64,000 nt of DNA from Komagataeibacter xylinus (GTDB lineage Bacteria; Pseudomonadota; Alphaproteobacteria; Acetobacterales; Acetobacteraceae): assembly GCF_004302915.1 (NCBI RefSeq), contig NZ_QQBI01000001.1, forward strand, positions 1-64,000, written 5' to 3'. The notes under the pieces were generated by a model, which was not told the origin of the DNA, searched no databases, and saw only the letters and a program-made list of their open reading frames with translations. The position numbers and the translations under genes were made by a program. This document shows positions 4,512-5,290 of this stretch, piece by piece; positions within the stretch are counted from its first letter, which is position 1, and every line of letters begins with the position of its first letter.

Positions 4512-4605
4512 GCTGTTCCCTGCCTGCTTTGAAGGTGTGGGTCATGGCAACACGTTTTGGGGTGCGGGTCCAGCAGCAGCGGGTGAAGCTGGCGTCAATT
4601 TTTAT

Positions 4606-4636
4606 CTTGATAATGATAGTGATTATCATTATCAAG
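4606..4636. promoter_or_regulatory. Fur box overlapping a promoter
   Basis: This 31-bp interrupted palindrome, with arms CTTGATAATGATA and TATCATTATCAAG, closely matches the classical Fur operator of repeated GATAAT units. Only the central positions break symmetry. Reading rightward it contains TTGATA (4607-4612), a 17-bp spacer and TATCAA (4630-4635), a plausible sigma-70 promoter that bound Fur would block. Because the site is nearly symmetric, a similar promoter reads leftward toward the ThDP enzyme at 4511. Fur recognition of GATAAT arrays is established; binding here is inferred. Confidence 0.8.
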
Positions 4637-4640
4637 AATG

Positions 4641-4739
4641 CAACCCGTGGGTCACCCGACAGAATCCCAACCGTCGATTTCCCAACCCTTCCCACGGAAA
4701 CTTGCGGCATCACCTGCACCCGGGTGATGCCGTTTTTTT
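4641..4739 (+). ncRNA. Candidate iron-responsive small RNA
   Basis: A transcript starting about 6 nt after the promoter element in the Fur box would run some 99 nt to the terminator at 4705-4739 and has no credible reading frame. It would fold into a 7-bp stem (CCGTGGG at 4645-4651 with CCCACGG at 4691-4697) closing a C-rich loop containing ATCCCAACC and TTCCCAACCC, followed by the terminator hairpin. C-rich single-stranded loops that pair with Shine-Dalgarno sequences are a known design of alphaproteobacterial sRNAs, and RyhB-type iron sRNAs are of similar size. The start point is inferred; I did not recognise a named family. Confidence 0.55.
4705..4739 (+). terminator. Strong intrinsic terminator
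   Basis: Perfect 10-bp arms (CGGCATCACC and GGTGATGCCG) with an 8-nt loop are followed at once by seven T residues. No protein gene ends just upstream on this strand, which is the main reason to suspect a short RNA between this site and the Fur box. Confidence 0.88.
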
Positions 4740-4795
4740 ATGGGAAGGCGGCACCGGCATACATCATGTGATTGACCACCCGCCGCAACGCGAAG

Positions 4796-5290
4796 ATGAT
4801 ACACCCTTACGCGATCATGAAAGTACGCCCCTTGCCTGCCGACAGTCCCGCGCCCCTGACTGCCCAGACAACCGCCCATGGCACGCAGGCGGATCATGAC
4901 CCGGCACTTCCCCCCCTTATCGAGACCCTGCGCCATGATGGCATCATTACCGCCCGCCAGGTCGCGGCGGCTCGGTTCTGGGCCACGGATTACCGCATTG
5001 GCGTGATGGGGCTTGAAGACCCGCTGTTTGACCGGACATCGCTCGGCCTGTCGCGCCGCCCGCTCAACGGGCGGAGCGGATCGATCAACCGGTACCGGCA
5101 TATCCATGACATCATCGGGACGCGTTACGAGCGCGTGCTCATCGCCGCCATGATCGATCACCGCCCCCTGCCAGAACTCGCCCGCCATGCCCGCCATGAT
5201 CCCAAGCACATGGGGCAGGTTCTCGCCCTGCTGCTTGATTTCCTGACCCGGCATTACGATGCCATGCCCGGCCATCTGTGGCGCGGCTGA
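4796..5290 (+). CDS. Hypothetical protein, DUF6456-like C-terminus
   Basis: The predicted 164-residue protein is soluble and rich in Arg, His and Ala. Its C-terminal half runs from ITARQVAAARFWATDYRIG to LALLLDFLTRHYDA. This resembles the C-terminal module of alphaproteobacterial DUF6456 proteins, which usually follow a helix-turn-helix, but the similarity is judged by eye and no HTH is obvious. The start is uncertain: TTG 4772, ATG 4796 and ATG 4817 are all possible and none has a good ribosome site. It lies just beyond the sRNA terminator and converges with glk. Confidence 0.5.
   Translation: MIHPYAIMKVRPLPADSPAPLTAQTTAHGTQADHDPALPPLIETLRHDGIITARQVAAARFWATDYRIGVMGLEDPLFDRTSLGLSRRPLNGRSGSINRYRHIHDIIGTRYERVLIAAMIDHRPLPELARHARHDPKHMGQVLALLLDFLTRHYDAMPGHLWRG

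Follow-up and report, generated by a model that had tools for sequence, protein, structure and literature searches.

Positions 4606–4739 of the window, by which we mean the whole 64 kb (64,000-nucleotide) stretch of DNA analysed here, carry a Fur-type operator with a promoter inside it, followed by a predicted small RNA (sRNA1) that ends in an intrinsic terminator (Table 1). An earlier note on this DNA had described a near-perfect 31-bp Fur box with an embedded promoter, a strong intrinsic terminator about 70 nt beyond it, no protein gene between the two, and an RNA of about 99 nt whose C-rich loop is closed by CCGTGGG/CCCACGG; all of this agrees with what we find, the ends of the RNA being inferred. 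The operator, CTTGATAATGATAGTGATTATCATTATCAAG, is self-complementary at 28 of its 31 positions and is the top-scoring 31-mer of the window. It contains two overlapping matches to the 19-bp Fur consensus (17/19 each), the best Fur-type site in the window, compared with a best of 26/31 for the palindrome and 14/19 for the Fur match in 20 first-order Markov windows. The two promoter hexamers stand symmetrically inside the palindrome, so a bound repressor would cover the promoter. Our promoter scan missed this TTGATA-17-TATCAA arrangement because it demands that the second hexamer end in T, and TATCAA does not.

The terminator begins 68 nt beyond the operator end. Folding of 4641–4739 gave the CCGUGGG/CCCACGG stem and the terminator at −38.5 kcal/mol (z −5.15), and none of 200 shuffles was as stable. 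The small inner hairpin CGAC/GTCG appears in the consensus fold only; the single-sequence fold shows a different inner hairpin. Longer mechanical open reading frames overlap the segment, yet there is no convincing protein gene in it.

Table 1. Predicted features of the sRNA1 locus, in window coordinates
Feature	Positions	Strand	Basis
Fur-type operator; two 19-bp Fur boxes overlapping in a near-perfect 31-bp palindrome	4606–4636		Palindrome and consensus scores against Markov windows
−35 hexamer TTGATA, inside operator	4607–4612	+	Sequence
−10 hexamer TATCAA, inside operator, 17-nt spacer	4630–4635	+	Sequence
Predicted small RNA sRNA1, about 98 nt	4642–4739	+	Ends inferred from promoter and terminator; conserved in 18/19 Komagataeibacter genomes
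5′ arm of closing stem, CCGTGGG	4645–4651	+	Fold; covariation with 3′ arm across paralogue and other genera
Small inner hairpin, 5′ arm CGAC (3′ arm GTCG, 4673–4676)	4657–4660	+	Consensus fold
Targeting core CGTCGATTTCCC, complementary to sdhC ribosome-binding site	4672–4683	+	Sequence pairing
C-rich loop, 3′ part, TCCCAACCCTT; complement of sucB ribosome-binding region (second, weaker target)	4680–4690	+	Sequence pairing
3′ arm of closing stem, CCCACGG	4691–4697	+	Single-sequence and consensus fold, covariation
Intrinsic terminator: 13-bp stem, 4-nt loop, T tract	4704–4739	+	Terminator scan, fold

Paralogues and relatives of the RNA

A DNA search of the genus found sRNA1 in 18 of 19 Komagataeibacter genomes, with weaker matches of its loop elsewhere, and a paralogue, sRNA2, in 15 of the 19; G015 has sRNA2 only, and G005, G008, G010 and G013 have sRNA1 only. 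In the genome from which the window comes (G000), the two genes lie on different contigs, sRNA2 at G000:C101. The sRNA2 box is spelled differently (TTGCAATTGATATTCGTTTGCAATATCAA in locus L020, where TTGCAA-17-TATCAA occupies the position equivalent to the sRNA1 promoter), and after the RNA come a stem and a T-rich tract that is less regular. The two RNAs have almost identical loops, TCCCAACCGTCGATTTCCCA; the closing stem (CCGTGGG/CCCACGG in sRNA1 versus TCACGGC/GCCGTGA in sRNA2) differs on both sides at four of its seven pairs, and all of them pair.

A covariance search of the segment in related acetic acid bacteria, one of the checks proposed in the earlier note, reached both paralogues in the genus and four further genera of Acetobacteraceae. 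A first model, for which only the RNA portion of sRNA1 was used and the promoter left out, recovered sRNA2 and the relatives in other genera, and nine of the ten places that it matched outside the genus have the core and a TTGCAA-type box just upstream. Across 41 sequences, 14 of 24 pairs carry double changes and 96.4% of cells pair; the covariation score was 0.399 against a shuffled mean of 0.183, a value reached by none of 500 shuffles, with the caveat that the underlying alignment (A4) had been fitted to the model. A second model matched 39 of 397 sampled Acetobacteraceae genomes at E 0.01. The weak matches in G082, G162, G171, G248, G267, G303 and G376 (E 1.8e-4 to 0.006) have no box and were rejected as false. 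The credible set comprises 32 of the 397 genomes in five genera, 14 within Komagataeibacter and 18 outside it, with a box in all 18 of the latter. Among 289 sampled Alphaproteobacteria, the covariance-model search matched the window's own genome alone; searches of more than 40 genomes apply stricter filters, so absence from large samples is not proof.

A motif scan of named species found carriers that include Komagataeibacter, Novacetimonas (with Gluconacetobacter entanii) and Gluconacetobacter. In named genomes the box stood 56–65 nt upstream of the core in 35 of 37 Acetobacteraceae loci versus none of 36 loci elsewhere, two of which have a loose box match at −92 and −36. For the two Acetobacteraceae exceptions (L083 and L127) the script gave another site, and the box is visible in the corresponding L019 and L014. 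In G383 the core of the second copy deviates (ATCGATTTTCC); the sdhC gene of that genome lay outside our comparison.

The four weak extra matches within the genus that were read, in G004, G007, G008 and G009, have no box and were also treated as false. In three of these genomes (loci L340, L341 and L342 of G004, G009 and G008) the match is a common short stretch in which a C run and AACT are followed by a strong GC stem and T-rich sequence; without a Fur-type box, it is possibly a different terminated RNA or a leader.

Complementarity to the sdhC ribosome-binding site

We examined sdhC because RyhB-type RNAs classically act on succinate dehydrogenase; it was the only classic RyhB target gene searched for. 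The earlier note had suggested comparing the C-rich loop with the start regions of TCA and iron-sulfur genes, and sdhC answers to this: its ribosome-binding site, GGGAAATTGACG, stands 8 nt before the ATG in 19/19 genus genomes and is complementary to the core of the RNA. The core, CGUCGAUUUCCC, can pair with GGGAAAUUGACG, a segment that runs across the Shine-Dalgarno region from −20 to −9 relative to the start codon. All 12 positions of GGGAAATTGACG and CGUCGAUUUCCC pair, with one G-U, in all 18 sRNA1 copies and in 14 of 15 sRNA2 copies; the fifteenth (G011) has the core CGUCAAUUUCCC and pairs with its sdhC site without a G-U, so that the sites pair 12/12 in 18/18 sRNA1 and 15/15 sRNA2. Cofolding of the whole RNA with the sdhC start region picks the core–sdhC duplex for both paralogues. 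The core is partly paired (GUCG) in the consensus fold, which counts against sdhC pairing.

Twelve contiguous pairs are kept in ten Gluconacetobacter and Novacetimonas genomes. In seven Gluconacetobacter genomes the sdhC site is GGGAAATCGACG, a Watson-Crick version that pairs free of G-U with an RNA reading CGUCGAUUUCCC; in three Novacetimonas genomes the site has its Komagataeibacter form. In two further genera, represented by G027 and G134, both the RNA core and the sdhC site are altered and pairing is retained. The G027 RNA CGUCGAUCCCCCG and its sdhC site CGGGGGACGACG form 7 bp, a bulge and 5 bp; the G134 RNA GUAUCGUCGCCUCGU and its site GCGAGGCGACGAUGC form 15 bp including wobbles, 12 of them contiguous and Watson-Crick.

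The case for pairing rests on uninterrupted helix length, a swap matrix of seven RNAs against 21 sdhC sites, and this joint change. The observed helix length was reached in shuffled loops once in 5000 for G000 (12 bp) and never in 5000 for G312 or for G134 (15 bp). The pairing of G027 alone is not significant (energy reached in 46/1000 shuffles, helix in 2604/5000), and G027 therefore counts only through the swap. There, the two changed RNAs pair best with their own site. For G134 the own pairing gives −33.6 kcal/mol, against −22.4 to −23.8 for its RNA on the six other RNA-bearing sites and −13.5 to −21.4 for its site with the six other RNAs; the corresponding values for G027 are −27.5, −16.6 to −21.4 and −16.6 to −23.8 kcal/mol.

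Energies are a weaker guide. The G000 duplex energy was reached by 5/1000 shuffles; with dinucleotides preserved, it was reached by 7/1000 loops and 17/1000 targets for sRNA1, and by 11/1000 and 34/1000 for sRNA2. For four of the seven RNAs (G000, G090, G140 and G230), some site from a genome without the RNA outscores the own site; the G000 RNA, for example, scores −24.7 on the G036 site and −21.9 on the G019 site versus −20.6 on its own, so energies alone do not separate the groups. Unconstrained duplex energies were discarded as a criterion, as they produced long composite helices and no discrimination. In 14 Acetobacteraceae without a credible RNA, the sdhC start region offers no more than nine contiguous pairs with the G000 loop (for G028, whose sdhC start could not be located, we took a default position), and three further RNA-less genomes gave no match to the sdhC family. 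Counted non-contiguously, G082, whose model match had been rejected, has an 11/12 wobble match overlapping the sdhC start codon, and G021 and G039 have 11/12 matches more than 80 nt upstream of the sdhC start.

A pattern search in the own genome (TTGGGAAA before ATG) first pointed to sucB, located 10 kb from sdhC; the same pattern also called up argS, a PepSY-like gene and an Rrf2-type regulator gene, named by eye. The sucB ribosome-binding region keeps AAGGGATTGGGAA in 19/19 genus genomes with varying flanking sequence, and the own-genome sRNA1 can pair with its AAGGG and TTGGGAAA around one bulged base. Outside the genus, in a comparison that covered 21 of its 27 loci, the complementarity is degraded in nine of ten Gluconacetobacter and Novacetimonas genomes with the RNA core unchanged (G140 keeps TTGGGAA). 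We therefore rejected sucB as the main target and retain it as a weaker, putative second one.

About 100 nt upstream of the sdhC start (e.g., L283 at ~1300–1450) are almost invariant in the genus, exceeding what a ribosome-binding site needs. The 12-nt GGGAAATCGACG also occurs at ~1500 in both L353 and L362, loci of two Komagataeibacter species in which it is conserved, and a succinyl-CoA:acetate CoA-transferase-like gene (by eye) lies ~500 nt downstream of it; on the opposite strand, this places the sRNA core sequence at the start of a phosphoesterase-like gene, which may be chance, a target or a decoy.

Neighbouring genes and alternative readings

Both RNAs have constant company. Downstream of sRNA1, on the same strand, lies P0002 (window 4817–5290), a 157-aa protein kept in 18/18 loci and without a Pfam or NCBIfam match. 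A conserved protein of ~325 aa (own genome L031:569–1543) follows sRNA2 in 15/15 Komagataeibacter loci, starting ~10–60 nt past the terminator in the loci measured, and adjoins the RNA in four other genera. Upstream of sRNA2, a divergent ferritin-like (Dps) gene is present in 12 of 15 loci (e.g., L020:735–1286) and also beside some Gluconacetobacter copies; given the divergent arrangement, both genes may be controlled from the Fur-type box. Elsewhere in the genus, further palindrome copies adjoin divergent genes (compared by eye only, except for L378).

The segment could be taken for something other than an RNA gene, or for an RNA that acts on its own transcript. A GTG-started frame, seen by eye, does traverse sRNA1 in the window and would be the basis for a small protein gene; that GTG is lost in sRNA2, however, the 18 aligned sRNA1 copies differ by gaps of 1, 2 and 4 nt within the segment and keep no frame, and stems are conserved where codons are not. 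Conservation of a frame in place of stems and loop was one of the outcomes that the earlier note had named as refuting its proposal, and with covarying stems and no frame kept, we consider a protein gene here practically ruled out. The proteins that follow the two RNAs so regularly would also suit a Fur-controlled leader or attenuator, the short RNA being the terminated 5′ end of a longer transcript that runs on into P0002 and is regulated in cis, and read-through at sRNA2 is not excluded. Yet each downstream protein is found only at its own type of locus, and the P0002 match starts at distances from the core that vary between 151 and 610 nt, without a constant spacing; moreover, conservation within the RNA peaks in the loop, which matches sdhC in trans and has changed along with it. 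We thus give a leader little credence and treat the product as a separate, trans-acting RNA.

The identity of the regulator and of the target can likewise be questioned. Boxes of the Fur family overlap, and the operator might serve another member (Mur, Zur or Irr), with an RNA that answers manganese, zinc or peroxide in place of iron; no protein-level evidence here identifies Fur, and G027 and some Gluconacetobacter carry drifted boxes such as TTGCAATTGCGATGCG. Against this, a similar palindrome in L378 has on one side genes for a PF10634 Fe2+ transport protein and a periplasmic binding protein, the Dps gene stands beside sRNA2, and the predicted target is an Fe-S/heme enzyme. These neighbours support Fur, which itself remains inferred, and a Fur-family relative is not excluded, although we find one rather improbable. 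An RNA that is real but meets sdhC only incidentally, its real targets being other mRNAs and the leader being conserved independently, has in its favour the near-invariance of the sdhC leader, which makes conservation of the site within the genus weak evidence alone, together with the equal or better energies at the sites of several RNA-less genomes and the 17 occurrences of GGGAAATYGA in the own genome. Two of the 17 belong to the sRNA genes; we read 14 of the remaining 15 (the last had no locus and was left out), and only the sdhC site falls in a ribosome-binding site, as judged by open frames. With both partners altered together in G027 and G134 as well, an incidental match has only a slim chance in our estimate, and sdhC stands as the predicted target.

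Proposed mechanism and comparison with known iron-responsive RNAs

We interpret 4606–4739 as the gene of a trans-acting, Fur-repressed sRNA, one of two paralogues, that pairs over the sdhC Shine-Dalgarno region and lowers succinate dehydrogenase, and we put the probability of this reading at roughly 85%. The anatomy of promoter, operator and terminator, the conservation, the stem covariation, the complementarity to sdhC and the joint change in two genera are established at the level of sequence, whereas we infer that the RNA is expressed under low iron, that the protein is Fur and that the outcome is repression. Through RyhB-type RNAs, Fur can lower iron enzymes during iron starvation even though it is a repressor. 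In the mechanism that we envision, Fe-Fur would, when iron is sufficient, occupy the palindrome containing both promoter hexamers and keep the RNA off; when iron is scarce, Fur would come off and the RNA would be made. The closing stem would then present the C-rich loop, whose core would pair over the sdhC Shine-Dalgarno region, so that translation of the sdh mRNA would be blocked, the mRNA probably degraded, and the iron of succinate dehydrogenase saved as less of the enzyme is made. The other loop segment, UUUCCCAACCCUU, may do the same to sucB (2-oxoglutarate dehydrogenase E2), in which case the oxidative TCA branch would fall as a unit.

Three features were asked of a member of the iron-sparing sRNA class. 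A Fur box over the promoter is present in the window and its relatives, without binding data; a short terminated RNA without a conserved reading frame is present as well; and pairing with the ribosome-binding site of an iron enzyme is met by complementarity and joint change, the effect on expression being inferred. The earlier note had proposed a Fur-controlled analogue of RyhB that belongs to no named family, and it is supported on both counts as far as sequence can support it, with expression, iron response, Fur binding and Hfq dependence inferred at most (the only Hfq-related feature seen at sRNA1 is the U-rich terminator tail). The second paralogue, the four further genera and the predicted sdhC target go beyond that proposal. 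Given the sdhC-complementary loop and its joint change with sdhC in two genera, Komagataeibacter-group acetic acid bacteria look like carrying one or two sRNAs, by inference controlled by iron, that form an unrecorded counterpart of RyhB.

An Rfam scan of the 64 kb window found no family at its gathering score. A relaxed search of 4560–4780 gave 16.7 bits for PrrF (gathering score 90), 13.6 for FsrA (80) and 22.8 for CcsR1 (RF02791; 65.3), and RyhB and NrrF were not among the matches. The RNAs would therefore resemble RyhB, PrrF and NrrF in their working without being members of those sequence families; judged by sequence, sRNA1 and sRNA2 are a new family of an already known working kind, the RyhB type. 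RyhB of Enterobacteria has a Fur-type box over its promoter, a length of ~90–100 nt, an intrinsic terminator and pairing with the sdh ribosome-binding site, all of which recur here, the pairing as a prediction, but its loop and seed are different and it had no match in the Rfam scans. PrrF1 and PrrF2 of Pseudomonas are also two paralogous Fur-controlled RNAs with a common core; they reportedly form a tandem pair (Wilderman et al.), in contrast to sRNA1 and sRNA2 on their separate contigs. NrrF of Neisseria is said to be a Fur-controlled sRNA required for sdhA/sdhC regulation, and thus shares the inferred control and the predicted target, yet it belongs to another class of Proteobacteria and lacks an Rfam-scan match. 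FsrA of Bacillus shares the inferred Fur control and a C-rich loop over the Shine-Dalgarno region and differs in the poor score of its model. RusT of Caulobacter is likewise an iron-starvation sRNA of an alphaproteobacterium, but one controlled by NtrYX and directed mostly at outer-membrane transporters. The Fur dependence and role of RyhB are described in PMC11005374 and PMC11475020.

Our searches of open-licence papers found no Fur-controlled sdh-targeting sRNA described in Alphaproteobacteria, and none such in acetic acid bacteria. Caulobacter goes a different way in that its Fur directly activates sdhCBAD, and a 1-kb RNA, R0117, is up in low iron and in the fur mutant (PMC6120978); no sRNA had been identified in the Caulobacter Fur regulon (PMC11005374), and PMC3751524 speculates about sRNAs in the CC0682-CC0681 operon. 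If our reading is true, an sRNA route using the classic operator and target also evolved or persisted within Alphaproteobacteria, and the joint change of RNA and sdhC in two genera would offer natural, ready-made compensatory mutants. Komagataeibacter is used for cellulose and vinegar, and its TCA flux is industrially relevant.

FsrA is described in PMC3751524 as a Fur-controlled RNA that works with small proteins. The Fbp proteins of FsrA are the model for a role that the ~325-aa protein beside sRNA2 might play: RNA and protein would form one Fur-controlled unit, with the protein as a dedicated partner of the sRNA pair, a chaperone or target selector. The idea is speculative and we think it unlikely to hold. 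Neither Pfam nor NCBIfam has a match to the protein, and PDB yielded no sequence match below E 0.8 and no fold match at E 0.001; were the unit real, a protein family without relatives in any of these would have been kept beside its RNA in five genera.
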